From positions 1 to 34,367 of the forward strand of contig CADCCR010000037.1 in NCBI GenBank assembly GCA_902799985.1: a stretch of DNA of 34,367 bases, written 5' to 3'. The notes beneath the pieces are model-generated. The model made no database searches. It had not been told where the DNA came from and saw nothing but the letters and a program-made list of their open reading frames with translations. The DNA is from an uncultured Bacteroidales bacterium. Lineage in GTDB: Bacteria > Bacteroidota > Bacteroidia > Bacteroidales > Bacteroidaceae. The position numbers were made by a program, and so were the translations under genes. This document shows positions 7,184 through 32,309 of the stretch, in pieces. The number at the start of each line of letters is the position of its first letter. The first letter of the stretch is position 1.

Positions 7184-7276
7184 GGAAGGCGCGTGCTCTT
7201 ATTTCGGAAGCGCTGGGCGCTTATTCCGGAAGCGCTAGGCGCTTATTTTGGAAGCGCTGGGCGCTTATTTCGGAAG
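7184..7276 (+). repeat. 22-bp palindromic tandem array, copy A
   Basis: Four head-to-tail 22-bp units start at 7184 (degenerate), 7206, 7228 and 7250, and a broken fifth begins at 7272. The unit is GGAAGCGC-N3-GCGCTTATTTC. The arms AAGCGC and GCGCTT are reverse complements around a variable 3-nt centre, here TGG, TAG and TGG. The same unit in the same orientation recurs near 17.5, 25.9 and 32.2 kb. An unrelated terminator lies upstream, so this copy is not needed to end the preceding transcript. Confidence 0.9.
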
Positions 7277-7379
7277 GGCAAGGAGGTTTGGATGGGGTTG
7301 CGTGGAGGTTTGGGTGGGAGTGTGGGGTGGTTTTGGGGGAAATGCGGGGTGTTGTGGTGGTTTGGGAAAGGTTTTTGGG
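7276..7379 (+). other. G-rich tract with a canonical G-quadruplex motif
   Basis: This stretch is very rich in G on the given strand and holds at least nine runs of three or more G. The runs at 7312-7314, 7316-7318, 7324-7327 and 7335-7339 are separated by 1, 5 and 7 bases, which satisfies the usual four-run quadruplex rule. It lies about 110 bases before the -7 box of the BspA-like gene. Whether it folds, or matters, cannot be told from sequence. Confidence 0.6.
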
Positions 7380-7466
7380 TGGTGATGATGTGCATTTTTC
7401 TGTATAAATATGCTGTGAAGGGGTTTTTTATGCTTATTTTGGGGCAAAAATGCGAGTTTTGGGTAC

Positions 7467-7497
7467 TTGCACGTATTCGGGAAAATACTTACCTTTG
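7467..7497 (+). promoter_or_regulatory. Bacteroidetes-type promoter of the BspA-like gene
   Basis: A TTG at 7467-7469 and a TACCTTTG -7 box at 7490-7497 are separated by 20 bases, matching the Bacteroidetes housekeeping promoter layout. The expected transcript start near 7502 gives a leader of about 45 bases. Confidence 0.75.
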
Positions 7498-7548
7498 CGG
7501 CGGTGATATTATATTTAGTGTACAAACAACAACTAAAACAATACAATT

Positions 7549-10500
7549 ATGAGAAGAAACAGTCTATTTCGTTTGCTGGCGATACTGCCGGCATCGGTAA
7601 CGGCATTTGTGCTTACATTCATGTTGGCGGTATTGCCGACGACAAGGGTTTATGCTGGGTACATTCATAACACGTTTATCAATCCTAACCTCGAAGATGT
7701 CAAGATTGGCGACCTGTATTACGACCTAAACACCAAAACCCACAAGGCAGCAGTGACATATCAACATAATAGTCCTGATTTGGAGAATTATAAAGGTCTG
7801 ACAAGTGTTGTTATACCTGAAAAGGTTAAATTCGCATTACCACTGCAAGAAGAGATTACTTATGATGTGGTAGAGATTGGAGAAGAGGCATTTAGGTTTA
7901 ATACTACAATCACATCTATATCCATCCCCTCATCAATAATCTGTATTAGCTCTGATATATGGAGTTCTGGAATTATAAGTGGATATTACATGGAACAGAA
8001 TCCTAATGGTTGGTACAAGGATGGCTATTATGTGGATGGCTGTTTAGTATATACGAAACATGATTCGTACGGAAATCCTGCAAATCGAGACAATTTTTAT
8101 GTCAAGGAAGGAACAAGGCTCATTGCATCGGATATTTTAAGAGCCGAACATGTTCATTTCCCCGAAGGGAAAATTATTCTTAGCCTTAATGTACAATACA
8201 CACTTCACTCAAATAGTTTTAATAAAGCCACACTTTGGGGTACTACAATTGACGGATATCTGAAAAGCAGCAAGGAGGGTGATTTGACTATCTACAACTA
8301 CAGCGGTGAGATTGATTACTCGACGAACACATACAAATCAATGAAGAAGATGTATGTGACGCGCGATGTGGCTCGCTATCATACGACCGGAAGGAATGTG
8401 CAGTGGAAAGACAAGGTGGAGCTGTTCCGCTTCAAGGTCGGCGACTTGTACTACGAGTTGCTGAACAAAGATGAGGCGGTGGTGGCTTACGATGCTTCCT
8501 ATGCTTCGCTCTCAAAGGAAATAGTCATTCCCGACAAGGTAACCGACAATGGACACACTTTCACGGTGACGAGGATTGACAACGAGGCGTTCAAGGGCGC
8601 TGCCTTTACCAAAGTGACTCTGCCAAGTACCATCACGACTGTGTCGGAGGGTGCTTTCTCCGGCTGCACGAAACTGACTGATGTGGCGTTTGCAGACGAG
8701 GTGACGACCATCGGCAAGCAGGCTTTCGTAGGCTGCACCGCCCTCAAGGAACTGGACTTGAACAAGGTGGCCAACATTGCTGCCGAGGCGTTCAAGGGCT
8801 GTACGTCTTTGGCTACGCTAACAACGAGTTACGCGGGTGTGGTGAATGCCCACGGCATGGCATTCGACGGCCTGAACAAGGGCAACATCACTTTGCAGGT
8901 GGCAAGCAATATGGTCAGCAGATACGAGCAAGACAGCTTCTGGAAGGACTTCCATATTGCAGCCAATCGCTATAAGTTGGAGGGCATCTGGTACGAACTT
9001 TCCGGCAACAATGCAATGGTGGTGAAGGAGAAGAGCGGCGAAGGCAACTACTCGGAGCTGACGGGCAAGGTGACGATTCCGAAGGATGTGGTGATAAATG
9101 GCAAATACTATACGGTGACCTCCCTCGAGGTCGGTGCCTTCCAATATGCGCCGTTCGAGGAGTTGGACATCCGTTGTCAGGTGACCATCCTGCCGGAAGG
9201 CTGCTGCTTCGCAATGTCTAACCTTACTAAGGTTGGGCTACCCGAGACGCTGGTGAAGATTGATGTTGATGCCTTCAACTCGTGCTCGGCATTGAAGTAC
9301 TTTAATGGATTGGAAGCATTCCGTTGTGCCGACTTCCCCAGTCTTACGACGATAGGCGAGTCGGCTTTCGCCAACAGCAGACTGAATACCGCATATTTGA
9401 ACGGCAGCGTCACCAATGTAGGCGAGTATGCATTCTTTAATTGCACCAATCTTCAAGATTTGATTTTGGGTGAAAAACTAACGACAATAGGCAAGTACGC
9501 TTTCAGCAATTGTCAAATAAGTAGACTTCATAATTATGCCGCCAAACCGCAGCCGTTCACGACGGGTATGTTTGAAGGTATGAGTAAATATCAATTAATC
9601 AGAGTGCCATTCAACAGTCTGGACGCGTATAGGACTGCCGATGGTTGGAAAGAATACCGCTACTATGCACAGCCGTGTAAAAATTGGTTGGACGATGACA
9701 GATATTTGTATTTCTATCCCGATAATGCGACCCTGACCGCCACTATCACATCAGATGATGATGCCAGTTCAGAGACAGACAACTACAAAGCCCTCGGCAA
9801 CACCGTTTTGGAAATACCACGGGAGATAGAGTCCGACGGCAAGACCTACACCGTTGTTGCCATCGACGATGCGGCGTTGAAGTATGCTCCTATTAAGAAA
9901 CTTGTTCTTCCTGCCACCATCAAGAGTATCGGCGACGAGGCATTCAGCTTCTCGGCTATAGAAGAGGTTGATTTCGACAATATATCGGGTCATGAGTGCA
10001 AACTTGGCAAGTATGCTTTCTCGCATTGCGTGAACCTGAAGGAGATAGAGATAAAGGGCGGTACGGTGCGCATCAGCGAAGGTGCGTTTGCCGACTGCTT
10101 CGCCTTGGAGAAAGCCGTCATACCCGGCGGCGTGCAGGAGATTGGCAAGGACGCTTTCAGCAACTGCGCCAAGCTGGAAGACCTGCAGTTGCCGAGCAGC
10201 CTCACCACCATCGGCGAGAGCGCTTTCTGGAACTGTTCCATCAGTTCGGGTACTTCCGCCGTCATCGGGCAGATGTCCGGATGCAGCTTTTTGGCGATGC
10301 GCTTGCATTCCTCGGCGGACATGATAACGGCCAATGTGTTCGAGGGCCTGACGCTGAGCAAGATTAACCTCTATGTGCCGCCTACACGCAAGAGCGCCTA
10401 CGAGGCGAAGGATGTGTGGAAGAACTTCAACGTGAAGGAGTCGAAGGCTGTGGTGGGCGGACTGTGCTACATGGTGAACCCCGCCACGAGGACGGCACAG

Positions 10501-13500
10501 CTGACCTTCGACGAACTCGTGCCGATGCCCTACGCCGGTCTGAGCGGGAAGGTGACCGTGCCCGCCTCTATTATATATAATAATGTGTCCTACGATGTGA
10601 CGGAGATAGGCAACTATGCCTTCCAGGGCAACACCACTATCACGGAGATTGTCTTGCCCGAAGGCATCAAGACCATCGGCGCCGACTGCTTCGAGAGGAT
10701 GACGAAACTGACGAAGGTGAACATCCCGCAGACGGTGGAGAGCATCTTCCGCTTCGAGTCGAGCGGCAACGGCATCACGCAGAACGAGAGCAACTACCGG
10801 GGCGGCCTGCTCATCATCGACAACTGCCTCCTCAAGGTCAAGAAGGAACTGACTGGCCAGGTGGATGTGCCGGAAGGCACGCGCCTGGTGGCAGGCAACG
10901 CCTTCTGCGGCTGCAAGGAGTTAACCCGCATCAGTCTGCCCGAGACAGTCACCGAGGTAGGCCCCTATGCATTCGAAAGCTGCAAGAAGCTGGGCGAAAT
11001 CAATTTGCCGAAGGGTCTGAAGGTCATCCACAAAGGAACATTCAACAGCTGCGAGACCTTAGGTACCTCTACGCTGACGCTGCCCGAGAGCCTGCTGGAA
11101 ATCGAGGACTACTCGTTCTGGAAAACTGTCCGTCTGACCGAACTGCGCTTCCCCGAGGGTTTGCGCAAGATAGGCGACCAGGCCTTCTGGCAGTCCGGCC
11201 TCAAGCGTATCTGGCTGCCCGAAAGCGTCGAGAGCATCGGTGCGTGGGCCTTTGCCGACCTCACCGTGCTGGAGGAGGTACACATCGCAGCTCCCGACCC
11301 GTCGGCCATCACGCTCGGCAACGGTGTGTTCGACTCAGCGCCTGCCGGAGCCAAGCTCTACGTGCCCTACGGGAGCCGGACGCTCTACGAGTCGGCACCG
11401 CAATGGTCGGCCTTCACCATCGAAGAGGACAACCCGTGCATCGACGGCTTCTACTATGTGCTGGACCAGTGGAACCACACCGCCACCCTCACCTACGAGA
11501 CGTATGAGGAGGACGGCGCCTACAACCATACCAACTACAGCCGGCTCAACACCACGGAGTGGACCATCCCGGCCCAAGTGGTGCAGGACGGACAGGTCTA
11601 TGCCGTGACCGCCATCGGTGACTATGCCTTCGCAAACACCAACGTGGAACAGATAAACCTGCCCGAAGGCATCGAGAGCATCGGCACGTCGGCCTTCGAC
11701 GGCAACGGGAGCCTGAAGCGAGTCATCCTCCCCTCCACCCTGACCAGCATCGGGCAGTTCGCCTTCTACGAGTGCCGCAGCCTGAGCGTCATCTACAACA
11801 ATGCAGCCCAGCCGCAGGACATCAAGGACAAGGGTGTGTTTGCCGACGGCACGTACGGACGCCTGGATGTGGCGAACATCGAACTGTATGTCCCCTTCGG
11901 CAGCGAGGAGCTATATGCTGCTGCCGACGAGTGGAAGGACTTCAACATCGTGGAAATGCCTGTCTGCATCGATGGCGTGTACTACGCTCTGCACGATAAT
12001 AATAATACGGCTGCCGTTGTGGCACAATACAAAAACAGTTCTTCCAACTATGCCGACCTTGTACGCGAACTGCTTGTTATCCCTCAGGCAATAACGGTGA
12101 ATGGCAAGGAATACAAGGTAACGAGTGTGCATACCCATGCCTTCGCATATTGCCAGGGTGTGAAGGTTCTCTCTCTGCCCGAAGGTCTGGAACAGATATG
12201 GGACAATGCGTTCAGCAACAGTGGATTCATGATGATTACGCTGCCTTCCACATTGACTCTGATAGTAGATAATGCCTTTGTAGGCTGCGACAACCTTTTC
12301 TACATCAACAACTTTGCCGACGAACCATTGCCCGTGGAGAACTTCATCGGCTACACGAAGCACGTCTTATATGTGCCCTACGGCAGCAAGGCGGCATACG
12401 AAGAGGCTGAGGTTTGGAAAGACTTCACCATTCATGAATTGCAAGTCTGCATCGACGGTATCTATTATTGGCCGAACGACGAGACGGGCACGGCTCAGGT
12501 GACGGTCGACTACTCGTACAACTCATACCGTAACCTCGGAACGGAGATTGTTATCCCCGAGCAGATTACCGTAGGGGACAATACCTACACCGTGACGGGC
12601 ATCATAAATGAAGCCTTCATAAACAACACCGTGCTGGAGAAGATAACGCTGCCGTCGCGCCTGACAAACATCAACTGGCAGGCCTTCAGCGGCTGCACCG
12701 CCCTGCGCACCATCATCAACGAGCGCACGGTACCCGCTTCGATTGACGCCACCGTCTTCGAAGGAGTGAGCCTCTCTGCCATCACGATGTACGTGCATCG
12801 CGAGGCAGTGAACGTATATAAAGAAACAGACATCTGGAAGCAGATGGGCATCGTCTCCATCGAGACACCCATCATGATAGCCGGTCAGCCCATCCGCCAG
12901 GAGCAGTACGGCAAGCCGCTGCCGGGCTTTCCGGGCGTCATAGTGACAGCCAATAGCGTAAGCATAGACGCGGGTTGGCGCATCGATAGTGAAGGTGTGC
13001 CTGCCATCGAACTGTATGCCGAGGGCTTGGTAAACACCTTCTTCATCAGCGGCAAGGCCGCCCATCTTTACAGTACCGGCAGTCCTGCTATACGCATCAA
13101 CGGCAACTCGCCTGTGACGTTGTGCATCAACACACACTTCAACGGAGACGAGACCACAGAAGGACTGGACTTGCGCATTGACTCCGACAGCGAGGAAGGC
13201 GGCATCGCCTTGGGCAACGGCATGGAGGTGACGCTGTACATCAACTCCACAGGTCAGCCTTCCACCAATGTCACCAACATTGTGGCAAGCACCGCAATAG
13301 GCATACCGCCCAGTGCACACTGCGACATACACGCAGCAGGCGAAGTGGGCCTTGTCAGCAACGAAGACATATGCCCGATAGGTGTGTTCGACACGCGAAG
13401 CCTGACGTTGCACGGCACCACGGTGGTACTGCCCTACGGCGGTGATGTGAAGGACGAAGGTATCTTCGATGCCTACGGCAACGACTGCTTCCGCCTGCAT

Positions 13501-14895
13501 CTGTCGCCCGTCACCACACAGAGTGGCAAGGCTTATCCTGTGGAACTGGCCGGCATGACCGTGACGGACGGCAACAAGGATGACATCCTGGGCGACGGCA
13601 AGGCATCGTATGAGCCTTCGACCAACACGTTGACGCTCGAAGACATCAACGTGACAGATACTTGCGGACAGGTGCTGAAAGCTACGGCCGGACTGCGACT
13701 GGAAGTCAAGGGCGAGAATTATGTCAAAGCTAATAGTAAACGTCCGACGGCAGAAGTACAGGGCGGTGACTTTGTAATCTTCGGTTCCAAGGACTCCTGG
13801 CTGAAACTCTGCGGTTCAAGCGGTGTGCAGTGCGACCAGACAGAACAATACCGCATGGAGGTGAAACGTTGCAACGTGGAGATTTATTCGTGGGGCTGTG
13901 ATTACGCCCTTCAGACCGACAGCCTCTGCGTGAATGCTGCATATCTTGAACTTGGAGGAGGTATGGACTGCCCACTTGCCTGGCTCTCGTGGAACGCGGC
14001 CGATGACGGAGGACTCGTGCTGAAACATGCCAACAAGACTTACGGCGAGGTGAACCAGGATGAATACATGGAGTTCGAACGCCAGGACCCGCTGCTCTTC
14101 AAGGTGGATGTAGCTGTTGACGAAGAGACACACGGTAGCGTCACAGGCGGCGGCTGGTACGAGGACGGCACTCAGGCCACCCTCACGGCAATCGCCAAGG
14201 AAGGCTTCAGGTTCGACCGCTGGAGCGACGACGTGACGGACAACCCGCGCCTGCTGACCGTGGACGACGACCTGACCCTTACCGCAATCTTTGCCGCTTT
14301 GGACAAGTACACCGTCACCTTCGTGGGCATGAACGGTGCCGTGATAGGCTACGACTACGTCTACGAGGGCCAGGCCGCCACAGCGCCCGAGGTGCCGGAA
14401 GTGGAAGGCTACACCTTCGTCGGCTGGGACCAGGACTTCAGCAACGTGACCTCGGACATGACCGTCACGGCCCAATACGAAATGACCGTGAAGATGTACA
14501 GTCTGAAGCTTGAGGTGGAAGGCGGCGGCAAACTCTACTTTGGCAGGTACAACGCTTTCGGCGAGCTGCAGGAAGTGGAGGCGACCGAATCCGAATATAC
14601 TTTCCAGGAAGGCACGCAGTTCATCCTCATTGCCAAGGCCGACGAGGGCTGGGTGTTTGCCCAGTGGAACGATGGCGAAACCAAGAACAAGCGTAACATT
14701 ACGGTGGCTTCCGACCTCACGTTGAAGGCCATCTTCACGGACGACCCCGACGGCATCCACAGCCCCAACGGCACCGCATCCGATGAAGAGAGCGTGAAGA
14801 TAGTCCGCAACGGAAAGGTTTACATCCTCCGCGGCGACAAAGTCTTCACGGTGGACGGCTATGAAGTGAGCAAGAAGAAACTTGGTCGTCAATAA
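7549..14895 (+). CDS. BspA-like leucine-rich repeat surface protein (2448 aa)
   Basis: A signal peptide spans about residues 1-36. Residues about 50-1770 are BspA/TpLRR-type leucine-rich repeats (LRR_5 family) with the usual pattern of AF-G/NC, L-LP-TL-TIG and EAF. They form eight blocks that each begin with a GDLYYEL/IDGxYY strand at about residues 52, 296, 477, 711, 970, 1297, 1473 and 1634 and mostly end with a YVP-GS-xxY ... W-DF-I segment. Residues about 1775-2180 form a beta-rich region resembling carbohydrate-binding beta-solenoids. Three InlB B-repeat-like domains follow (about 2186-2245, 2252-2312 and 2315-2395), marked by F-RW, F-GWD and FAQWNDG motifs. The tail VRNGKVYILRGDKVFTVDGYEV is a typical Bacteroidales terminal segment. 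The BspA family is known for adhesion to host proteins and to other bacteria; that role here is inferred. The gene has its own promoter and is followed directly by a two-component system. Confidence 0.93.
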   Translation: MRRNSLFRLLAILPASVTAFVLTFMLAVLPTTRVYAGYIHNTFINPNLEDVKIGDLYYDLNTKTHKAAVTYQHNSPDLENYKGLTSVVIPEKVKFALPLQEEITYDVVEIGEEAFRFNTTITSISIPSSIICISSDIWSSGIISGYYMEQNPNGWYKDGYYVDGCLVYTKHDSYGNPANRDNFYVKEGTRLIASDILRAEHVHFPEGKIILSLNVQYTLHSNSFNKATLWGTTIDGYLKSSKEGDLTIYNYSGEIDYSTNTYKSMKKMYVTRDVARYHTTGRNVQWKDKVELFRFKVGDLYYELLNKDEAVVAYDASYASLSKEIVIPDKVTDNGHTFTVTRIDNEAFKGAAFTKVTLPSTITTVSEGAFSGCTKLTDVAFADEVTTIGKQAFVGCTALKELDLNKVANIAAEAFKGCTSLATLTTSYAGVVNAHGMAFDGLNKGNITLQVASNMVSRYEQDSFWKDFHIAANRYKLEGIWYELSGNNAMVVKEKSGEGNYSELTGKVTIPKDVVINGKYYTVTSLEVGAFQYAPFEELDIRCQVTILPEGCCFAMSNLTKVGLPETLVKIDVDAFNSCSALKYFNGLEAFRCADFPSLTTIGESAFANSRLNTAYLNGSVTNVGEYAFFNCTNLQDLILGEKLTTIGKYAFSNCQISRLHNYAAKPQPFTTGMFEGMSKYQLIRVPFNSLDAYRTADGWKEYRYYAQPCKNWLDDDRYLYFYPDNATLTATITSDDDASSETDNYKALGNTVLEIPREIESDGKTYTVVAIDDAALKYAPIKKLVLPATIKSIGDEAFSFSAIEEVDFDNISGHECKLGKYAFSHCVNLKEIEIKGGTVRISEGAFADCFALEKAVIPGGVQEIGKDAFSNCAKLEDLQLPSSLTTIGESAFWNCSISSGTSAVIGQMSGCSFLAMRLHSSADMITANVFEGLTLSKINLYVPPTRKSAYEAKDVWKNFNVKESKAVVGGLCYMVNPATRTAQLTFDELVPMPYAGLSGKVTVPASIIYNNVSYDVTEIGNYAFQGNTTITEIVLPEGIKTIGADCFERMTKLTKVNIPQTVESIFRFESSGNGITQNESNYRGGLLIIDNCLLKVKKELTGQVDVPEGTRLVAGNAFCGCKELTRISLPETVTEVGPYAFESCKKLGEINLPKGLKVIHKGTFNSCETLGTSTLTLPESLLEIEDYSFWKTVRLTELRFPEGLRKIGDQAFWQSGLKRIWLPESVESIGAWAFADLTVLEEVHIAAPDPSAITLGNGVFDSAPAGAKLYVPYGSRTLYESAPQWSAFTIEEDNPCIDGFYYVLDQWNHTATLTYETYEEDGAYNHTNYSRLNTTEWTIPAQVVQDGQVYAVTAIGDYAFANTNVEQINLPEGIESIGTSAFDGNGSLKRVILPSTLTSIGQFAFYECRSLSVIYNNAAQPQDIKDKGVFADGTYGRLDVANIELYVPFGSEELYAAADEWKDFNIVEMPVCIDGVYYALHDNNNTAAVVAQYKNSSSNYADLVRELLVIPQAITVNGKEYKVTSVHTHAFAYCQGVKVLSLPEGLEQIWDNAFSNSGFMMITLPSTLTLIVDNAFVGCDNLFYINNFADEPLPVENFIGYTKHVLYVPYGSKAAYEEAEVWKDFTIHELQVCIDGIYYWPNDETGTAQVTVDYSYNSYRNLGTEIVIPEQITVGDNTYTVTGIINEAFINNTVLEKITLPSRLTNINWQAFSGCTALRTIINERTVPASIDATVFEGVSLSAITMYVHREAVNVYKETDIWKQMGIVSIETPIMIAGQPIRQEQYGKPLPGFPGVIVTANSVSIDAGWRIDSEGVPAIELYAEGLVNTFFISGKAAHLYSTGSPAIRINGNSPVTLCINTHFNGDETTEGLDLRIDSDSEEGGIALGNGMEVTLYINSTGQPSTNVTNIVASTAIGIPPSAHCDIHAAGEVGLVSNEDICPIGVFDTRSLTLHGTTVVLPYGGDVKDEGIFDAYGNDCFRLHLSPVTTQSGKAYPVELAGMTVTDGNKDDILGDGKASYEPSTNTLTLEDINVTDTCGQVLKATAGLRLEVKGENYVKANSKRPTAEVQGGDFVIFGSKDSWLKLCGSSGVQCDQTEQYRMEVKRCNVEIYSWGCDYALQTDSLCVNAAYLELGGGMDCPLAWLSWNAADDGGLVLKHANKTYGEVNQDEYMEFERQDPLLFKVDVAVDEETHGSVTGGGWYEDGTQATLTAIAKEGFRFDRWSDDVTDNPRLLTVDDDLTLTAIFAALDKYTVTFVGMNGAVIGYDYVYEGQAATAPEVPEVEGYTFVGWDQDFSNVTSDMTVTAQYEMTVKMYSLKLEVEGGGKLYFGRYNAFGELQEVEATESEYTFQEGTQFILIAKADEGWVFAQWNDGETKNKRNITVASDLTLKAIFTDDPDGIHSPNGTASDEESVKIVRNGKVYILRGDKVFTVDGYEVSKKKLGRQ

Positions 14896-14927
14896 TTTGC
14901 AGATGTCGGAGGAATGTAGTACCTTTG
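14896..14927 (+). promoter_or_regulatory. Promoter of the histidine kinase gene
   Basis: TTTG at 14896-14899 and TACCTTTG at 14920-14927 are separated by exactly 20 bases. The TTTG begins on the base after the stop codon of the BspA-like gene. The start codon of the kinase is only five bases past the -7 box, so the transcript would begin at or next to the ATG. Confidence 0.75.
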
Positions 14928-16863: not shown

Positions 16864-17490
16864 ATGAACATAGGAATCCTTGACGACCATGAGCTGATAC
16901 GCATAGGCGTAAGCAGTGTGCTGCACGACACGACGCACGTCGTCAGCATCAGTGCGGCCTGTGCCGAAGACCTGTTCGAGGCTTTGGAATCGGGCACGTC
17001 CTGCGACCTGCTGCTGCTGGATATCCTCATGCCTGGAACCAACGGCTTCGAGGTGGCCAAACGCATGCGTACGGAGTATCCCGACATCAAGATTATCGTT
17101 CTCTCGGTCGACACGAAGGAATACGTCATCACGCGGCTCATGCAAATCGGCATCGACGGCTTCATCAGCAAGAACGGCCCGCTGGAGGAGGTGAAGCTGG
17201 CCATCGACTCGGTGGCGGAAGGTGTGCCGTTCTATGGGCGCGACCTTGCCGTGCTGGTGCGCGACATCGTGGATGCACAGCCCAACAAGAGGTCCTCGGC
17301 CCTGCTCACCAAGCGCGAGCTGGAAATCATCGAGGCCTGTTGTGCCGGCCTGCTGGGCAAAGAGATTTCCGAGAAGTTCCACATCTCCCTCAGGGCCGTG
17401 AACAGTCACAAGACGAACATCTTCAACAAGCTGGGCATCTCTTCCTCTGTCGAGATGGTGCGCTTTGCCTTGGAGCACGGCATCATTTAG
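16864..17490 (+). CDS. NarL/LuxR-family response regulator
   Basis: The protein has 208 residues. The N-terminal receiver domain (about 1-120) has the acidic pair Asp7/Asp8, the phospho-acceptor Asp53 in LLLLDILMPG, the switch residue Ser81 and Lys103 in ISKNG. All key residues of an active receiver are therefore present. The C-terminal part (about 143-208) is a LuxR-type helix-turn-helix: LTKRELEIIEACCAG, EISEKFHIS, then VNSHKTNIFNKLGI. It should act as a DNA-binding transcription factor paired with the TPR kinase encoded just upstream. Targets cannot be told from the sequence; the neighbouring surface-protein gene is a candidate. A 22-bp array begins eight bases after the stop codon. Confidence 0.95.
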   Translation: MNIGILDDHELIRIGVSSVLHDTTHVVSISAACAEDLFEALESGTSCDLLLLDILMPGTNGFEVAKRMRTEYPDIKIIVLSVDTKEYVITRLMQIGIDGFISKNGPLEEVKLAIDSVAEGVPFYGRDLAVLVRDIVDAQPNKRSSALLTKRELEIIEACCAGLLGKEISEKFHISLRAVNSHKTNIFNKLGISSSVEMVRFALEHGII

Positions 17491-17497: not shown

Positions 17498-17607
17498 GGA
17501 AGCGCCCCGTGCTTATTCCGGAAGCGCAAGGCGCTTATTTCGGAAGCACTAGGCGCTTATTCCCGAAGCGCAGGGCGCTTATCTCGGAAGCGCAAGGCGC
17601 TTATTTT
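17498..17607 (+). repeat. 22-bp palindromic tandem array, copy B
   Basis: Five contiguous 22-bp units start at 17498, 17520, 17542, 17564 and 17586. The 3-nt centres are CCC, AAG, TAG, AGG and AAG between the AAGCGC and GCGCTT arms. The third unit has an AAGCAC arm and the first a GTGCTT arm, the latter keeping a G-U pair in RNA. The array starts eight bases after the response regulator stop. Confidence 0.93.
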
Positions 17608-24908: not shown

Positions 24909-25083
24909 AAAAATGAAAGAATGAAAGAATGAAAGAATGAAAACTCATTCTCAGTCTCTTTGTCATTCATTCTCTCATTCTTTCATTCTTGCAAAACCTT
25001 TCATTTCTTCATTCTTTCATTCTTTCATTTCTTCATTCTTTCAGTATTTCATTCTTTCATTCTTTCATTTTTTCATTCTTTAT
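24909..25083 (+). repeat. Inverted low-complexity AATGAAAG / CTTTCATT repeats
   Basis: Bases 24911-24942 hold about four copies of the 8-bp unit AATGAAAG. Bases 24963-25080 hold many copies of its reverse complement, broken by variants such as TTTCTTCATT. In RNA the two halves could pair into a long, imperfect stem. They fill the whole 175-base gap between the kinase and nucleotidyltransferase genes. No promoter box is seen. Confidence 0.85.
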
Positions 25084-25832
25084 ATGAAGTGTTTAATCCT
25101 TGCCGCGGGCTATGCTACCCGCCTTTATCCCCTCACCGAGAACTTCCCCAAGCCGCTCCTCAAGGTGGGCGACAAAGCTATCCTCGACTGGCTCATCGAC
25201 GACATCGACGGCGCCGGACTCGTGGACGAATACATCGTCATCTCAAACCATAAGTTAACCATAAGTTCGCCCATCACTTCGAGGAGTGGGCTGCCACAAA
25301 AACACAGAAAGTCACCGTCGTGGATGACGGCACGTCCACCAACGAGACACGCCTCGGAGCAGTTCGCGACATACAGTTCGCCATCGACAAGCTTCATCTC
25401 GACGACGACATGCTGGTCATCGCCGGCGACAACCTGCTCGATTTCAGCTTGCAGCAGTTCGTCCGCTATGCCCACGAGAAGCAGACCTCCTGCATCATGC
25501 GTTTCTGGGAGAAGGACGAACAGCGGCTCCTGAAGTGCGGCGTCGTCACCGTGGATGATAACGACCGCATCCTGCGCATGACCGAGAAGTCGCCTACACC
25601 CGAGACCCACTGGTGCACCCCGCCCTTCTACTTCTACACGCGTCAGGATGCCCGCCTCGTCCAGAAAGGCATCGAGAGCGGCTGCGGCGTAGATGCCCCG
25701 GGCAGCTACATCGCCTGGCTCTGCACGCAGACTCCCGTCCACGCCATGGAGATGCCCGGCCGCCGCTACGACATCGGCAACCTCCAGAGCTACGAGCAAG
25801 TGCAGCGCGACTATCAAGGCATCACCGTCTGA
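25084..25832 (+). pseudogene. Sugar-phosphate nucleotidyltransferase, frameshifted
   Basis: The start MKCLILAAGYATRLYPLT followed by NFPKPLLKVGDKAI is the nucleotide-binding signature of the NTP_transferase family (RfbA/GlmU-like), which joins a sugar-1-phosphate to a nucleoside triphosphate. The frame is correct to about residue 57 (IVISNHK). An exact duplication of 11 bases (25246-25256 and 25257-25267) then shifts it. The correct frame resumes as KFAHHFEEW, continues VVDDGTSTNETRLGA and VIAGDNLLDF, and ends RRYDIGNLQSYEQVQRDY at 25832. With one copy removed the gene would be 245 codons, a normal length for a minimal member. The rest is undamaged, so the break is recent. It may be inactive, or a reversible switch. 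A downstream ATG (25320) could start the second part but would lack the nucleotide-binding loop. Confidence 0.9.
25246..25267 (+). repeat. Exact 11-bp duplication that shifts the reading frame
   Basis: AACCATAAGTT occurs twice with no bases between. Eleven is not a multiple of three, and taking out one copy restores an uninterrupted coding frame that keeps the family pattern on both sides. Consistent with slipped-strand replication. Confidence 0.95.
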
Positions 25833-25842
25833 AGCATATCCC

Positions 25843-25996
25843 GGAAGCGCCCTGCGCTTATAGCCGAAGCGCCCCGCGCTTATTTCGGAAGCGCCTTGCG
25901 CTTATCGCCGAAGCGCCCCGTGCTTATTTCGGAAGCGCCTCGCGCTTATCGCTGAAGCGCCCTGCGCTTATTTCGGAAGCGCCCCGTGTTGTTACA
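25843..25996 (+). repeat. 22-bp palindromic tandem array, copy C (seven units)
   Basis: Seven contiguous 22-bp units start at 25843 and every 22 bases to 25975. The 3-nt centres are CCT, CCC, CTT, CCC, CTC, CCT and CCC. The link between units alternates between TTATTTCGG and TTATCGCCG/TTATAGCCG forms, so there is a hint of a 44-bp double unit. The last unit is degenerate. The array starts 10 bases after the nucleotidyltransferase stop. The remainder of the gap to the rimP promoter (25997-26133) shows no recognisable element. Confidence 0.95.
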
Positions 25997-26133
25997 AAAG
26001 CGGCCGCAGATTATAGATAAAGGTAAATGTTGTTCTGACACGGACAAACAAGGAAAAAGAGGCATGCTTACCGCGCTTTGGCCCGGTGACCGATTGGGTT
26101 AGAACAAAATAACGGCATTTTTCGGCGCATTTA

Positions 26134-26165
26134 TTTGCACGTTTCGCAGAAATGGCGTACCTTTG
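26134..26165 (+). promoter_or_regulatory. Promoter of the rimP-nusA-infB operon
   Basis: TTTG at 26134-26137 and TACCTTTG at 26158-26165 are separated by exactly 20 bases, the clearest match to the Bacteroidetes promoter in the window. The transcript would start near 26170 and have a leader of about 70 bases. Confidence 0.8.
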
Positions 26166-26178
26166 CACGCGAAAGATG

Positions 26179-26210
26179 AAAGTGAGGGGCTCTGAAGGTT
26201 CCTCACTTTT
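26179..26210 (+). promoter_or_regulatory. Leader hairpin before rimP
   Basis: Bases 26179-26187 (AAAGTGAGG) pair perfectly with 26201-26209 around a 13-base loop, and T and CG follow. It starts about 10 bases into the predicted leader. The run of four T at its 3' side makes a weak attenuator possible, or a site for a protein or ribosome; the operon codes for factors often under self-control. No known riboswitch is recognised. Confidence 0.55.
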
Positions 26211-26239
26211 CGTTATAAACCATTAAAAAGCTAAGATAC

Positions 26240-26707
26240 ATGATCAGCAAAAGTGCAGTGCAGCAGGCCGTAGAAGAGTGGCTCGAAGGTAAGGAGTATT
26301 TCCTGGTTGACATCAATATCAGTCCGGACGACCGCATCGTGGTGGAGATAGACCATGCCGACGGAGTGTGGATAGAGGACTGTGCCGACCTGAGCCGTCA
26401 CATCGAGTCGCGCCTGAGCCGCGACGATGAGGACTACGAGCTCGAGGTGGGCAGTGCAGGCCTGGGTCAGCCCTTCCGTGTGCATCGCCAGTACGAGATA
26501 CATGTGGGCAAGGAGGTGGAGACACAGCTGCACGACGGACACAAGTTCCGCGGCACCCTGCTCAGCGTGAGCGACGAAGGCTTCCAGCTCAGCATCCTGC
26601 AGAAGGTGAAGGAAGAAGGGAAGAAACGTCCCGTCACAAAAGAAGTGACAACCGACTTCCGCTTCGACGACGTCGCCTACACAAAGTACTTGATAAAAGT
26701 AAAATGA
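26240..26707 (+). CDS. rimP: Ribosome maturation factor RimP
   Basis: The 155-residue protein assists assembly of the 30S ribosomal subunit. The N-terminal domain carries the DINISPDDRIVVEID strand pair and the family motif LEVGSAGLGQPF (the equivalent of the more usual VSSPGLDRPL). The C-terminal Sm-like domain has a VETQLHDGHKFRGTLLSVSDEGF segment, and the length is normal. It is the first gene of the operon; its TGA overlaps an ATG at 26704 that is in the nusA frame. The gene order rimP-nusA-infB is widely conserved in bacteria. Confidence 0.96.
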   Translation: MISKSAVQQAVEEWLEGKEYFLVDINISPDDRIVVEIDHADGVWIEDCADLSRHIESRLSRDDEDYELEVGSAGLGQPFRVHRQYEIHVGKEVETQLHDGHKFRGTLLSVSDEGFQLSILQKVKEEGKKRPVTKEVTTDFRFDDVAYTKYLIKVK

Positions 26708-26739
26708 GTGGTGAGAGAAATCAAATAACAAACAATATA

Positions 26740-27882
26740 ATGGCCAAGACAACAAAATCAAAAGAGGCGATAAACATGATAGAGGTTTTCGCCGACTTCA
26801 AAGAGAAGAACAACATCGACCGCGCCACGCTGGTGAGCGTGCTCGAGGAGTGTTTCCGCGGTGTCCTCGCCAAGCTCTATGGCTCCGACGAGAACTACGA
26901 CATCATCGTCAACCCCGACAAGGGTGACTTCCAGCGCGTCAATATGTCCGACTTCGGCCGCCGCGCCATACTCACCCTGCGGCAGACCCTCTCCGGCCGC
27001 ATCATGGAGCTGGAGTACGACTCGCTCTACAACCAGTACAAGGACCGCGTGGGCGAAGTCATCAGCGCCGAAGTCTATCAGACATGGAAGCGCGAGACGC
27101 TGCTCATGGACGAGGACGGCAACGAACTGCTGCTGCCGCGCCAGGAGATGATACCCGGCGACTTCTTCCGCAAGGGCGACAACGCCCGTGCCGTGATAGC
27201 CAGCGTGGAGAGCACCGGCGGCAAGCCTCGCATCATACTGAGCCGCACGTCGCCCACCTTCCTGCAGCGCATGCTCGAGGCCGAGGTGCCTGAGATACAG
27301 GACGGACTCATCACCATCCACAAGATAGCACGCATCCCGGGCGAACGCGCCAAGATTGCCGTGGAGAGCTACGACGACCGCATCGACCCCGTAGGAGCCT
27401 GCGTGGGTGTGAAAGGAAGCCGTCTGCGTGGCATCGTCCACGAACTGCGCGGCGAGAACATCGACGTCGTCACCTGGACCTCCAACACGCAGCTCATGAT
27501 AACCCGTGCCCTGAGCCCCGCACGTGTGAACAGTGTCGTGCTCAACGAAGAGGAGCACAAGGCCGAGGTCTTCCTCGACCCCGACCAGGTTTCGCTTGCC
27601 ATCGGTAAGAGCGGACTCAACGTCAAGCTGGCCAGCATGCTCGTGGGCTACACCATCGACGTCTTCCGCGAGGTGGACAACGAAGCCGACGACGACGACG
27701 TAAGCCTGGACGAGTTCACCGATGCCATCGAGCCTTGGATTATCGACGAACTCAAGAAGATTGGCTTCGAGACAGCAAAGGACGTGCTGGGTGCTCAGCG
27801 CGACATGATTGTGAAGAACGCCGACCTCGAAGAAGAAACTGTCGACGAAGTGCTGCGCATCCTGCAAGCAGAGTTCGAATAG
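26740..27882 (+). CDS. nusA: Transcription termination/antitermination factor NusA
   Basis: The protein binds RNA polymerase and nascent RNA and controls pausing, termination and antitermination. The N-terminal domain holds IEVFADFKEKNNIDR, followed by an S1 domain (about residues 120-190, around GDFFRKGDNARAVI) and two KH domains (about 215-330) with DPVGACVGVKGSRLRGIVHEL and VSLAIGKSGLNVKLA. A short acidic and helix-hairpin-like end finishes in EILRILQAEFE-like residues. The start is set at 26740 (MAKTTKSKEAINM), which agrees with the usual family N terminus; ATG 26704, overlapping the rimP stop, would add 12 residues. It is 380 residues long by the chosen start. The C-terminal acidic repeats of E. 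coli NusA are absent, which is normal outside the gammaproteobacteria. Confidence 0.96.
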   Translation: MAKTTKSKEAINMIEVFADFKEKNNIDRATLVSVLEECFRGVLAKLYGSDENYDIIVNPDKGDFQRVNMSDFGRRAILTLRQTLSGRIMELEYDSLYNQYKDRVGEVISAEVYQTWKRETLLMDEDGNELLLPRQEMIPGDFFRKGDNARAVIASVESTGGKPRIILSRTSPTFLQRMLEAEVPEIQDGLITIHKIARIPGERAKIAVESYDDRIDPVGACVGVKGSRLRGIVHELRGENIDVVTWTSNTQLMITRALSPARVNSVVLNEEEHKAEVFLDPDQVSLAIGKSGLNVKLASMLVGYTIDVFREVDNEADDDDVSLDEFTDAIEPWIIDELKKIGFETAKDVLGAQRDMIVKNADLEEETVDEVLRILQAEFE

Positions 27883-27951
27883 TTCACAAGACATCAGAGC
27901 GGTAACATATTCTTTAATCTTAATTCTTCATTCTTCATTCAAAGCTTATAT

Positions 27952-30867
27952 ATGAGCATCAGATTAAATAAAGTAACCAAGGAATTCAACATCGGACTGC
28001 AGACGGCTGTTGAGTACCTCCAAAAGAAAGGCTTCAGCGAGGTTGAGGCCAATCCCAACTATAAGATTACCGAAGAGCAGTATGCGCTGCTGCAGGGCGC
28101 GTTCAGTTCCGACAAGGGACTGCGCAAGGAGGCTTCGCAACTCATCCAGCAGCACATCGACCAGGCCAAGGAGCGCAAGGAGACAACCAAGGCGAAGGTC
28201 GTGGAGGAAGTGAAGGTGGAAGCGCCCAAGATGGCCGGCCCCAAGATACTGGGCCGCATCGACCTGGGCGGCACACGCACCGAGGCTCCCAAGGCTAAAA
28301 AGGCATCTGCCGCTAAGTCTGAGCCAAAGGCTGAGGTGAAGAAGCCCGAACCGAAGCCCGTAGAGGAGAAAGTGCAGACTGCCGAGCCTGCACCGGCTCC
28401 GAAGGAAGAACCCGTGGCAAAGGCTCCGAAGGCTGAGCCGGCTCCTGCTGCCCCTGTGCAGACCGAGCCCGCCGCACCTGCTCCTGCCAAGCAGAAGAAG
28501 GAGAAGCCCGCCGTGGCTCCCGCTGCAAAGGCTGAGCCGGCAGCTCCCGCACCGGTGGAAGAGAAGAAGGCCAAGAAGGAAGAGGTACCTGCAGAACCTG
28601 CTCCCGAAGAGAAGAAGGAAGAAGAGGTGTTCCGCCTGACACCTGCAACGAGCGTCGCTCCGGGCTTGACCATCAAGGGCAAGATAGACCTGAGCAGCCT
28701 GAACCAGACCACACGCCCCAAGAAGAAGTCGCACGAGGAACGTCGTCGCGAACGCCTGGAAGGACAGGGCGGCGACCGCAAGAAACGTGTTCGCGTGGGC
28801 AAGGAACGTGTCGACGTCAATGCCGTTGCCAACCAGCCGCAGAATAACGGCGGACAGAAGAAGAACGGCGGCAACAGTCAGCAGCAGAACCAGCAGGGCA
28901 GCGGCAAGAGCAAGAAGCAGAAGAACCGTCCCAAGCAGACCGTCGTCCAGCCCGAGGTAAGCGACGAGGAAGTGGCAAAGCAGGTACGCGAGACCCTGGC
29001 ACGCCTCACCAACAAGTCGGGCAAGATGGGCAAGGGCGCCAAGTATCGCCGCGAGAAGCGTGAAGCCATCCGCCAGGGAATGGAGGAGGAGCTGGCTAAC
29101 GAAGCAGCAGAGAGCAAGGTACTCAAGCTGACAGAGTTCGTGACGGCCAACGAGCTTGCCACGATGATGAACGTGCCTGTCACGAAGATTATCGCCACAT
29201 GCATGAGCATCGGCATCATGGTCAGCATTAACCAGCGCATGGATGCCGAGACCATCAACCTCATTGCCGAGGAGTTCGGCTTCACCACAGAATACGTCAG
29301 TGCGGAGGTCAGCGCCGCTGTCAGCGAGGAGGAGGACGATGAGGCCGACCTCGTGCCCCGTGCTCCCATCGTCACCGTCATGGGTCACGTCGACCACGGT
29401 AAGACGTCGCTGCTCGACTACATCCGTCAGACCAACGTCATTGCCGGCGAGGCAGGCGGCATCACGCAGCACATCGGTGCCTACAACGTGACGCTCGACG
29501 ACGGACGACACGTCACGTTCCTCGATACGCCAGGCCATGAAGCCTTCACCGCCATGCGTGCCCGTGGTGCTCAGGTCACCGACATCGCCATCATCATCGT
29601 GGCAGCCGACGACGACATCATGCCGCAGACGAAGGAGGCCATCGCGCATGCCACGGCTGCCGGCGTGCCCATCGTCTTCGCCATCAACAAGATTGATAAG
29701 CCCAGCGCCAACCCTGACAAGATTAAGGAAGGCTTGGCTGCCATGAACTTCCTCGTCGAGGAATGGGGCGGCAAGTACCAGAGTCAGGACATCAGTGCCA
29801 AGAAGGGTATCGGCGTAAGCGAGCTCCTGGAGAAGGTGCTCCTCGAAGCCGAGATGCTCGACCTCAAGGCCAACCCCAACCGCAAGGCGACGGGCTCCAT
29901 CATCGAGTCCAGTCTGGACAAGGGTCGTGGCTACGTGGCTACGGTGCTCGTCAGCAACGGCACGCTCCATGTGGGCGACATCCTGCTGGCCGGAACGAAC
30001 TATGGTCGTGTCAAGGCCATGCTCAACGAACGTGGTCAGCGCGTGCAGACCATCGGTCCGGCACAGGCGGCTACCGTCCTTGGCCTGAACGGTGCACCGC
30101 AGGCCGGCGATGCCTTCCACGTGATGGACTCCGACCAGGAGGCGCGCGAGATAGCCAGCAAGCGCGAACAGCTGGCGCGCGAGCAGGGACTGCGCACCAT
30201 GAAGCGCCGCGGACTGGAAGAGCTTGCCCACAACATCGCACTGGGCGGCGTGCAGGAGCTCAACCTTATCGTCAAGGGCGACGTGGACGGCTCCATCGAG
30301 GCCCTCAGCGACTCCCTCATCAAACTCTCGACAGAGAAGGTTCAGGTCAACGTCATCTACAAGGCCGTCGGCCAGATCAGCGAGAGCGACGTCAACATGG
30401 CTGCTGCTGCAAGCAACTGCTTCATCGTCGGCTTCCAGGTGCGTCCCTCGGCTGCCGCACGTCGTCTGGCCGACCAGATGGACGTCGACATCCGCCTCTA
30501 CAGCGTCATCTACGATGCCATCGAGGAGGTGAAGGATGCTATGGAGGGCATGCTTTCGCCGGAAATCAAGGAGGAGGTGACGGCTCAGCTCGAGGTGCGT
30601 CAGGTGTACCACATCACGAAGGTGGGCACTGTGGCCGGCGCTTACGTCGTAGACGGCAAGGTGAGCCGCTCGAACAAAGCGCGTGTCATTCGCGACGGTA
30701 TCGTCATCTTCACCGGTGCCATCAATGCCTTGAAGCGCTTCAAGGACGATGTGAAGGAGGTCAGCACCAACTTCGAGTGCGGCATCTCGCTGGTGAACTA
30801 CAACGACCTGCGCGAGGGTGACATGATAGAGACCTTCCAGGAGATTGAAATCAAGGCAACACTCTAA
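27952..30867 (+). CDS. infB: Translation initiation factor IF-2
   Basis: The 971-residue GTPase brings initiator tRNA to the 30S subunit and promotes subunit joining. The N-terminal domain ([16 protein letters not shown]) is followed by a long Ala/Pro/Glu/Lys-rich linker (about residues 60-230) and a basic Asn/Gln-rich stretch (about 240-330). The second IF2-N domain precedes the G domain, with G1 GHVDHGKT at 478-485, G3 DTPGH from Asp525, G4 NKID at 579-582 and G5 SAKKGIG. The C-terminal domains with [14 protein letters not shown] end in EIEIKATL. The gene lies 69 bases after nusA without a promoter box and is probably read from the rimP promoter. A full-length mirror frame on the other strand is only a shadow. 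Confidence 0.98.
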
Positions 30868-30872
30868 AGCAA

Positions 30873-30980
30873 AATTCATAATTCACAATTCATAATTCAT
30901 AATTTTGGGGCAGCGGCTTGTCTTTCTCATGGCGTAGCCTAATTATGAATTATGAATTACGAATTATGAATCATGAATTA
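30873..30980 (+). repeat. Inverted AATTCATAATTC repeats between infB and cvpA
   Basis: Bases 30873-30904 hold repeated ATTCATAATTCA units, and bases 30941-30980 hold repeated reverse complements (AATTATGAATT-like). A non-repetitive 36-base loop with GGGGCAGCGGCTT lies between them. The RNA could fold into a long A-U stem. There is no T tract, so termination is not certain. Confidence 0.85.
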
Positions 30981-30985
30981 ATTGA

Positions 30986-31525
30986 ATGGATATTCTCCTG
31001 CTCATACTGTTGGCTGTGGGCTTCATCAGCGGCATTGTCTCGGGAGCCGTCAGGCAAGTTATCTCGCTTGTGGCTTTCGTCCTGGGCTTTGTCATAGCCT
31101 GCTTCTACTACCAGCAGCTTGGGGCTGTGCTGGGCAGTGTTCTGCCTCTGCCGGCCTTCTGCAATGTGGTGGCGTTTATCCTGTTGTGGGTCGTTGTGCC
31201 CATCGTGGCGCGACTGGCCGGCACGTTGCTCACGTCGCTGCTCGACGGACTGTTTGCCGTCGGGTTGCTCAACCGCTTGTTGGGCGGTATTCTCGGTGTG
31301 GCGAAGTACGGACTTGTGCTCGGTGCATTTATCTGGCTTTTCTCCTCCATGCAGGTTATCAGCGAGGAGACAATGCAGCAGTCACGTCTGGCAAGGCCCC
31401 TCAAGGCTGTGCCGGAGTTCATCTACAATCTTATTGGCAATAAAATGTCGGTCTCTTCGCCGCAGGAGCCGGTTCCGTCGGAGGAACAGGCTGGGGAAGA
31501 GATGCGCGAATGCCTGCTCAGGTAG
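30986..31525 (+). CDS. cvpA: CvpA-family membrane protein
   Basis: The 179-residue protein has four hydrophobic segments within its first 125 residues, starting MDILLLILLAVGFISGIVSG, then VRQVISLVAFVLGFVIACFYY, an internal segment around VVAFILLWVVVPIVARL, and a fourth around GLLNRLLGGILGVAKYGLVLG. The Gly-rich first helix, VRQ motif and LNRLLGG segment mark the CvpA (colicin V production) family. The family is tied to envelope stress tolerance and colicin export in other bacteria, but the mechanism is not settled. The acidic tail is cytoplasmic. Its stop is three bases from that of the convergent yhcH-like gene. Confidence 0.88.
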   Translation: MDILLLILLAVGFISGIVSGAVRQVISLVAFVLGFVIACFYYQQLGAVLGSVLPLPAFCNVVAFILLWVVVPIVARLAGTLLTSLLDGLFAVGLLNRLLGGILGVAKYGLVLGAFIWLFSSMQVISEETMQQSRLARPLKAVPEFIYNLIGNKMSVSSPQEPVPSEEQAGEEMRECLLR

Positions 31526-31528
31526 CTA

Positions 31529-31993
31529 TCAGGCCTTGACTTTGATGATGGCCTTGTGCAGTCCTGTGGGTGTGATGGCCGGTGCGTGTCCGTCCTCTGG
31601 GAAGAAGATGGCGAACTGCCCCGGGTGGAGCATGAAGTAGGTCTGCGTCACGTCCTCGGAGGTCTTGGGGGCAGCCGGGTCGTGCATCGTCATGTCGCAG
31701 CCCTCGTTGTATGTGCCGTTGGGCAGAGCGGCGGTCGGTGTCCAGCCATATTCCTCGCTGTCGCTGAGGGGAACCTGGATGTCAATCATGCGTCGGTGCG
31801 ACTCGAAGCGAGCCTCCTTGCGTGACTTGGCAGGCGCCTCCTGCACGTTGATGAAGAGGTCGTCGCCCAGAATCTTTGTGATACCCGTTGGGAGGGAGTT
31901 GAGGTCCGTCGTGCGCAGGAATTCTGCGACGGCCGGGAAGAGCGGGTTCAAGCCGGCATAGCGGTCGAACTCCTTGATGTCGTCGATAATCAT
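31529..31993 (-). CDS. YhcH/YjgK/YiaL-family (DUF386) cupin-like protein
   Basis: The 154-residue protein shows the family landmarks: an FESHRRMIDIQVPLSDSEEYGW core, FINVQEAPAK, the metal-binding-type HPGQFAIFFPEDGHAPA and a final HKAIIKVKA. The family is a cupin-like barrel that is thought to act on sugars such as sialic acid breakdown products, but function is weakly known. It is alone on the minus strand between cvpA and sufB, has its own promoter, and its stop is three bases from the cvpA stop. Confidence 0.9.
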   Translation of the reverse strand: MIIDDIKEFDRYAGLNPLFPAVAEFLRTTDLNSLPTGITKILGDDLFINVQEAPAKSRKEARFESHRRMIDIQVPLSDSEEYGWTPTAALPNGTYNEGCDMTMHDPAAPKTSEDVTQTYFMLHPGQFAIFFPEDGHAPAITPTGLHKAIIKVKA

Positions 31994-32021
31994 ATTAAAT
32001 CGTGTTCATGATATAGTGCTG

Positions 32022-32029
32022 CAAAGTTA
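32022..32029 (-). promoter_or_regulatory. -7 box of the yhcH-like gene
   Basis: TAACTTTG on the minus strand, 28 bases before the ATG at 31993. A TTTCC-like element lies near the -33 position. Confidence 0.65.
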
Positions 32030-32097
32030 CGAAAAAATGAGGAAAGTAGAGCGATGAAGCACGAATTATTAATGTCGGAGGGGAGAAATCTTTTGTT

Positions 32098-32309
32098 TGA
32101 AGCGCCCTGCGCTTATTTCGAAGACCCCTACCAAACCTCCCCGAGGGGAGGCTTTCTTTTGCCGCAGCATTCACTCCCCCTCGGGGGAGACGGAGAGGGG
32201 TTGCTTTCGGAAGCGCCCTGCGCTTATCTCCGAAGCGCCTCGTGCTTATTTCCGAAGCGCCTTGCGCTTATTTCGGAAGCGCCTTGCGCTTATTTTGGAA
32301 GCGAAAGCC
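32098..32309 (+). repeat. 22-bp palindromic tandem array, copy D (interrupted)
   Basis: One unit lies at 32098-32119. A foreign 78-bp segment follows, and then four further units start at 32209, 32231, 32253 and 32275, with a broken unit from 32297. The 3-nt centres are CCT, CCT, CTC, CTT and CTT. This array sits between two divergent promoters (yhcH-like and sufB), so it does not follow the end of any gene. The rest of the 462-base gap, apart from the promoters, holds A+T-rich sequence without recognised elements. Confidence 0.93.
32124..32201 (+). mobile_element. MITE-like inverted-repeat insertion in array D
   Basis: The segment starts ACCCCTACCAAACCTCCCC and ends in the partly matching reverse complement (GGGGAGACGGAGAGGGGT). 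Two G+C-rich palindromes, CCTCCCCGAGGGGAGG and CTCCCCCTCGGGGGAG, lie inside it. Near-copies of the flank, TTTCGAAG on the left and TTTCGGAAG on the right, could be a target duplication. It has no coding capacity. Confidence 0.6.

Follow-up and report, generated by a model that had tools for sequence, protein, structure and literature searches.

The window analysed here is the whole 34,367-nt contig CADCCR010000037.1 of a draft genome of an uncultured Bacteroidales bacterium (assembly GCA_902799985.1, hereafter G000; 3.05 Mb, 215 contigs, 79% complete), and it carries four intergenic arrays, A to D, of a 22-bp palindromic unit with AAGCGC/GCGCTT arms. These arrays belong to a genus-wide class of 22-bp arrays, in which the period is shared and the unit sequence differs by species. 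The period, the proximity to the 3' ends of genes and, in one genome, an even spacing along the chromosome appear constrained while the sequence does not, which points to a role at the DNA level that depends on spacing. We tentatively favour the reading that the arrays are intergenic mini-satellites forming a helix-phased binding lattice, with a unit sequence that turns over like that of a satellite.

All four arrays were recovered at the sites and with the unit numbers given in the initial annotation of the window (Table 1). The core AAGCGCN3GCGCTT at up to two mismatches gave 20 matches in the window against 2.6 expected, and 0 of 100 shuffles reached 20. All but one of these matches fall inside the four arrays. 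Further copies, the absence of which would have spoken against a selected element, are abundant in the genome: a 25-base unit pattern matched G000 603 times with up to three mismatches allowed and 459 times with up to two, whereas a reversed control gave 0. The 1.17 Mb of G000 that was searched contained 70 arrays of at least two units and 11 singletons. A simple in-house gene caller placed 65 of the 70 arrays in intergenic DNA, and the gene-context classes used below rest on those 65. The spacing of the units was nearly invariant. Within the G000 arrays, 280 of 282 steps were 22 bp and the remaining two were 44 bp. Among successive cores at most 70 bp apart, 249 of 252 in G000 were spaced by 22 bp (the others by 18, 44 and 57 bp), as were 112 of 114 in the sister species G073 (the others by 44 bp). 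A spacing of 21 or 23 bp occurred in neither genome, and the 363 G000 units carry 943 substitutions relative to their consensus. Orthologous array-free intergenic DNA (24 regions) showed 101 indels to 681 substitutions, or 0.148 indels per substitution.

The consensus of the 363 units is GGAAGCGCN3GCGCTTATTTC. The information content was 1.29-1.85 bits per column in the arms, except for one column of 0.88, 0.07-0.70 in the centre and 0.42-1.41 in the linker, so that arms, centre and linkers do not change at equal rates. The 3-nt centre had been described as free to vary, and this was not borne out. The centres are mostly pyrimidine (Y type; CTC, CCC, CCT) or the reverse complement (R type; GAG, GGG, AGG), and their type is tied to the arm variant. 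A Y centre is combined with GTGCTT in 118 units and an R centre with AAGCAC in 30, whereas crossed types are rare (Y with AAGCAC alone in 1, R with GTGCTT in 2, Y with both arm changes in 2). Thus, the 15-bp core is present in two orientations and the linker in one. The 65 arrays of at least three units comprise 28 with Y units alone, 9 with R units alone, 23 that switch once from Y to R, one that switches once from R to Y and four that are mixed; the first unit is of the Y type in 54 and the last of the R type in 33. Unit identity was 0.781 within arrays, 0.726 between arrays and 0.803 between neighbouring units, and higher-order periods of 44 and 66 bp were seen. The contiguous 6-bp arms were significant against shuffles (p 0.03).

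To place this family among other repeats, complex intergenic arrays with a period of at least 12 bp were collected from the same G000 DNA with Tandem Repeats Finder (TRF). A 3-mer filter removed low-complexity repeats here and in the unit clustering, the surveys of congeners and other genera, the list of arrays at the sufB and GH2 gaps and the congener placement set described below. Of the 146 arrays, 112 had a period of 22 bp, 28 of 21 bp and none of 23 bp. The 140 arrays of period 21-23 bp formed 45 unit clusters, comprising the AAGCGC cluster (56 arrays), an AT-rich palindromic 21-bp element (26 arrays), a CACGTG-type unit (11 arrays), four clusters of 2-3 arrays each and 38 units found at a single locus. 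The initial annotation had treated the arrays as one repeat family; the family is real, but it is only one member of this wider class. The CACGTG-type unit stands in phase with AAGCGC arrays at several places in G000. At two of the loci read (L032:1490-1650 and L112:5300-5570), AAGCGC units run in 22-bp phase into CACGTG-type units, which suggests a succession of subfamilies within one array.

Of 139 genomes from the genus, six contained the AAGCGC unit at up to two mismatches, and in three of them it was abundant (459 matches in G000, 362 in G073 and 161 in G060, against 7 in G013, 6 in G113 and 1 in G020). G073 and G060 were matched by identical sequence to RGIG4863 and UBA4336, respectively. 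An exact 19-mer search of GTDB contigs returned 38 stretches, 32 from RGIG4863, two from UBA4336 and four from unrelated records, which had no core or scattered cores with two mismatches, and no arrays; exact GCGCTTATTTCGGAAGCGC was not found in IMG/VR. Other species carry other units. The two-unit pattern AATGGTTAACCATT had 191 sites in G012, 160 in G024, 23 in G020 and a single one in each of G120 and G146, with none in the 134 other genomes, and TTGCTTCATCGCGATGAAGCAA had 91 sites in G013, one or two in eight other genomes and none in 130. A survey of 495 kb from six congeners, coding DNA included, gave 31 arrays of period 22 bp, four of 21 bp and none of 23 bp, while 277 kb from eight other genera of the same order contained no array with a period of at least 16 bp. 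One syntenic region of 4-20 kb was compared from each of 20 congeners; 13 of these regions held at least one period-22 array, that of G082 held an array of period 23, and those of G060, G074, G113, G051, G109 and G128 held none at the TRF threshold used. Dyad pairs exceeded those of shuffles at p <=0.05 in 13 of 29 units, and several congener units are loopless palindromes. This set consisted of hand-picked congener units plus two of G000, with the G012 consensus written from its matches; it excluded variants of one unit as well as the 23-bp unit of G082. The common period of such different sequences hints that what a cell component recognises is the spacing of the units and not their sequence.

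Because many species of a single genus share this architecture while their sequences differ, period, position and sequence can be told apart. Upstream of sufB, the gap that holds array D in the window, 22-bp arrays were found in 7 of the 14 congener loci holding sufB. TRF detected those of G013, G079, G121, G117, G024 and G012; that of G070, missed by the filter or score, has 43 of 44 matches at lag 22. Together with G000, eight species carry an array here, and on reading they show seven unit types: GGAAGCGC in G000, TTGCTTCATCGC in G013, AAGTACACGGACTT in G079, AATCGCCGCACGCG in G121, CAACGCGGCGTGCC in G117, ATAATGCTTAACC in G024 and G012, and ATGCAATTGCATGTAC in G070. The gap is without an array in G060, G074, G152, G082, G109 and G128, and in G051 it holds one degenerate copy. 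The G103 piece stops short of sufB; there, an array of the AAACCCACGCGCG type follows colV. The gap between the GH2 and galactokinase genes was occupied in 5 of 13 loci holding both genes (G070, G121, G092, G024 and G012), by four unit types lying 11-34 bp past the end of the GH2 match. Between G000 and G073, six of eight mapped G000 arrays had an occupied orthologous gap in G073, and six of seven in reverse. These counts rest on 8 of 74 arrays of G000 and on 7 arrays of at least two units of G073 (34 were called in G073), and the G073 regions compared were drawn from contigs already bearing arrays. The genus offers a comparative system in which to seek a partner that co-varies with the unit.

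The position of the arrays relative to genes also appeared constrained. The placement set comprised 61 of the 65 G000 arrays of at least three units, each lying between two called genes. Convergent gaps held 25 of the 61 against 10.5 expected, and divergent gaps 10 against 20 expected. The nearest gene 3' end was at a median of 22 bp, compared with 124 bp for random intergenic positions and 49 bp for random positions in the same gap, and only 6 arrays were 100 bp or less from a gene start, where 21 were expected. In 40 congener arrays from 13 species, the 33 with a gene 3' end lay at a median of 29 bp from it versus 49 bp (P 0.017). Along the chromosome, the array loci of G000, with arrays at most 500 bp apart merged, were evenly spaced: the 36 gaps had a mean of 10.7 kb and a coefficient of variation of 0.48 versus 0.80, and 0 of 2000 simulations gave a value as low. 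Gaps shorter than 4 kb numbered 2, against about 10. The even spacing held in both halves of the contigs (P 0.0075 and 0.003), and the other 22-bp arrays of G000 were likewise evenly spaced (ten gaps, P 0.0025). If it also holds in closed genomes, it would be relevant to the division of bacterial chromosomes into supercoiling domains. The direction of the arrays followed no such rule. The same orientation reported for the four window arrays was confirmed there, but across the genome neighbouring arrays agreed in only 20 of 37 pairs, as in a random arrangement. Where the flanking genes are co-directional, 17 arrays run with the genes and 9 against them, and the share of R-type units varied weakly with gene context (0.14-0.47).

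Constant spacing combined with changing sequence would fit a protein lattice on one face of the DNA. A unit of 22 bp is about two helical turns, which would place all units of an array on the same face, where a predicted dimeric protein or complex would bind the array as DNA and fill the units side by side. Such binding would occur where supercoils from converging transcription gather on the chromosome. The unit sequence would drift together with the predicted binding protein, while the spacing could not change. Arrays would grow locally by slippage or unequal exchange, as the 44- and 66-bp repeats and the likeness of neighbouring units suggest, and would reach new loci by some spreading route. 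A more specific proposal, to which we give rather little credence, is that a chromosome-organising protein reads phased 22-bp dyad arrays about every 10 kb at the ends of transcription units, and that its recognition sequence diverges so fast that the whole array set is replaced while the period, and partly the gaps, are kept.

Several observations weigh against the binding lattice. No binding protein has been identified, although none was sought. Of two other dispersed repeats of G000, one had 10 gaps to 52 mismatches and the other only one gap to 55 mismatches; because this control repeat is also poor in indels, a scarcity of indels is not by itself proof that the spacing is under selection. 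The main alternative is a homogenisation in which units of the wrong length are purged, and youth of the arrays could likewise leave few indels. The period has exceptions, namely 23 bp in G082 and one array of 21 bp in G121. The AAGCGC unit was not significant by a whole-unit dyad score (p 0.53), and the 45 unit clusters of G000 together showed no dyad excess (mean arm 3.44 vs 3.38 shuffled), which indicates that the dyad is not general. Half of the congener sufB loci lack an array, and hence no single site is needed. In the congeners, convergent enrichment was weak (8 of 40 arrays vs 25 of 167 intervals) and avoidance of gene starts unclear (9 of 32 within 60 bp of a start). Deletion between close repeats could yield even spacing, which was moreover tested in one draft genome.

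The same placement would be expected of selfish repeats like repetitive extragenic palindromic (REP) sequences or miniature inverted-repeat transposable elements (MITEs), moved in trans by a transposase, for which gene 3' ends and convergent gaps are tolerated sites and the even spacing results from loss of DNA between close copies. We regard this as possible though unlikely. Bursts of unit families limited to a few species, orthologous gaps that differ in occupancy between sister species (the six of eight and six of seven above) and the absence of array C from the orthologous gap of G073, G060 and G013 would all fit it, as would the inverted-repeat-like outline of arrays that begin with Y and end with R units and the company of other dispersed repeats, 5 of 12 copies of one and 6 of 10 of another lying within 60 bp of an array. 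However, the arrays have no common leader or tail. A flank resembled that of another array in 28 of 65 cases on the left and 11 of 65 on the right, and on reading this likeness came largely from a related subfamily of 22-bp units and from two further repeats. The Y1 transposase domain PF01797 had two matches in G000 (E 2.8e-6 and 8.1e-5) but none in the array-rich genomes G012 and G024, the drafts searched, G000 included, being 72-86% complete. The 1910-bp stretch around the first G000 match (L140) contained no AAGCGC core (best, three mismatches in 12), and the gene adjoins a different palindromic repeat. Selfish spread also leaves unexplained why unrelated sequences have one period in common.

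The repeat next to the Y1-transposase-like gene (L140:189-540), of the AAATGCTTATATT..GGATTACAAATCC type, makes that gene a candidate REP-associated tyrosine transposase (RAYT). Palindromic repeats of this type also stand beside arrays on the G000 contigs C7, C11, C16 and C30, and a related query found 12 copies aligning over at least 35 bp in the 1.17 Mb, the five noted above lying close to an AAGCGC array.

The role of palindromic intergenic repeats, whether REPs, bacterial interspersed mosaic elements (BIMEs) or MITE-derived, is a long-standing question. BIMEs bind gyrase, and the BIME-2 elements of Escherichia coli are cut by gyrase. The even spacing and 3'-end placement of the present arrays recall these elements and topological domains. 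Like REPs and BIMEs, the arrays consist of short intergenic palindromes in high copy number, enriched between convergent genes and depleted at gene starts, clearly so in G000; the 40 congener arrays clearly share only the 3'-end preference. They differ in the head-to-tail order of the units with a rigid 22-bp period, and in that the unit is replaced between species while period and site are retained. REPs are described as high-copy elements of 20-40 bp falling into GTAG and CGTC super-families (PMC3733652), frequent between convergent genes and bound by gyrase, integration host factor (IHF) and Pol I (PMC1525189). Neither a GTAG nor a CGTC tag is present in the AAGCGC consensus. A REP/RAYT system was rejected on this ground together with the missing core beside the inspected Y1 transposase gene and the missing domain in G012 and G024.

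Within the same order, by Pfam-based reading, the closest likeness is to BrickBuilt and PgRS of Porphyromonas gingivalis, which are also intergenic minisatellites of direct repeats, of 23 and 41 nt, respectively (PMC4596501). BrickBuilt is described as a MITE that has leader and tail segments and IS5-like inverted ends and numbers 19 elements in ATCC 33277; 22-nt tandem repeats are mentioned for strain W83 (PMC4596501). By comparison with what is described there, the AAGCGC family differs in having 70 arrays in 1.17 Mb, another consensus and the same period in species whose units differ. With leader and tail missing and 8-mers like the BrickBuilt terminal inverted repeats present in 2 of 130 array flanks, a BrickBuilt-type MITE was rejected. 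The AAGCGC arrays are thus BIME- or REP-like in placement, yet lack the REP/RAYT and BrickBuilt features looked for.

Non-coding tandem-repeat families dispersed through a prokaryote genome have been described as transposed satellites in Leptospira interrogans and Methanocella conradii, two of 261 species surveyed, with units of 37-69 nt and families of 3-6 satellites (PMC6749651). The present arrays, with 65 intergenic members among 70 and local homogenisation, qualify as prokaryotic non-coding satellites. The available text of PMC6749651 mentions neither a short period fixed across species nor a palindromic unit, nor a position at gene 3' ends. Among titles and the openings of abstracts, with subscription literature mostly outside the scope, we recognised no published report of species-specific 22-bp arrays in this group.

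It is improbable that the arrays act as RNA, through hairpins in the transcript that terminate transcription or shield the 3' ends of mRNA. They do sit shortly after stop codons, also between co-directional genes, and RNA of the window arrays folded better than shuffles (z -1.8 to -3.8); the latter is because the arrays are palindromic. Compensatory pairs, however, were almost absent: the six pair positions of the 363 units showed three alternative Watson-Crick pairs, and at pair 7-13, G-U occurred 120 times and A-C 31 times. GTGCTT was used about equally by Y units of arrays reading with the flanking genes (32 of 61) and against them (17 of 31). Neither covariation nor strand-dependent use of G-U was thus found in the G000 units. 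Of the two roles originally offered for the dyad, a hairpin or a DNA-binding site, the tests of covariation and G-U direction count against the hairpin, while the conserved dyad and locked spacing agree with a site on DNA. In G060, a variant with a single mispair, AAGAGC..GCGCTT or its reverse complement AAGCGC..GCTCTT, has spread to 13 of 28 units among the matches listed. Hairpins need no fixed 22-bp spacing, and units such as AATGCTTAACCATT scarcely fold. An intrinsic terminator was rejected, as pairing conservation and strand dependence were missing and the hairpin is trailed by ATTTC only, with no U run; an Rfam scan of the window at gathering thresholds gave no match. Distinct terminator-like hairpins, recognised by eye, lie just 5' of several arrays on the G000 contigs C6, C9, C10, C15, C18, C26 and C30, where the array thus sits between this hairpin and the neighbouring gene, which also speaks against an RNA role.

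We consider it similarly doubtful that the arrays are functionless products of mutation, in which a replication or repair process peculiar to the genus duplicates any DNA in 22-bp steps. The many single-locus arrays without common sequence or dyad excess would be its natural outcome, and the 44- and 66-bp periods and local homogenisation agree with it. Families with hundreds of dispersed copies, however, require spread beyond local birth, and such a process does not account for the avoidance of starts and convergent enrichment in G000, the 3'-end preference, the even spacing or the dyad excess of congener units. RNA-templated synthesis, considered by analogy with yeast telomeric repeats, was set aside in view of the 44/66-bp higher-order structure and the graded units, and a CRISPR (clustered regularly interspaced short palindromic repeats) array was rejected since the 7-nt linker is conserved rather than a unique spacer.

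Table 1. Arrays of the window and features beside them
Feature	Position	Strand	Description
Array A	7184..7276	+	22-bp units: three good, one degenerate
G-rich DNA	7285-7351		directly 3' of array A; 22-bp period weak or degenerate
LuxR-type response regulator gene	16864-17490		stop codon 7 bp before array B
Array B	17498..17607	+	five 22-bp units
Split NTP-transferase gene	24937-25832		two overlapping open reading frames in different frames
8-bp tandem repeat	24966-25081		TTCATTCT, near start of split gene
Array C	25843..25996	+	seven 22-bp units; higher-order pattern of 44 bp
Array D, first unit	32098..32119	+	separated from remaining units by inserted dispersed repeat
Array D, interruption	32124..32208	.	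separate dispersed repeat; edges approximate
Array D, rest	32209..32296	+	four units; YhcH-type gene (minus) and sufB (plus) on either side

Array D had been described as interrupted, which is correct in that one unit is separated from four others, but the interruption is a repeat of its own that also precedes other arrays. In the 1.17 Mb, 10 copies of it align over at least 35 bp, this one included, and the six noted above lie within 60 bp of an array. The edges of the interruption carry TTTCGAAG and TTTCGGAAG, which could represent a target duplication or plain repeat homology. Array A is flanked by a 1884-aa open reading frame with F5/8-type C and M26-N matches, both sub-threshold, and on the other side by a BspA-type leucine-rich repeat gene.

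The AT-rich palindromic element of period 21 bp carries three GAAATATATTTC cores, with AAAACT/AGTTTT-like edges in the inspected copies. It was seen at L079:16646-16966, L083:17946-18429, L069:10272-10854 and other G000 loci, and strict core clusters numbered 20 in the 1.17 Mb. In the inspected elements, one or both flanks carry 22-bp arrays of locus-unique sequence, and by eye some of these flanking units resemble a loose GAAGGAAATTGTGTCC-like theme. Array C begins 10 bp past the stop codon of the NTP-transferase reading frame and is followed by rimP-nusA-infB. The split of the NTP-transferase gene, near whose start the 8-bp tandem repeat lies, may reflect a frameshift, an assembly error or phase variation.

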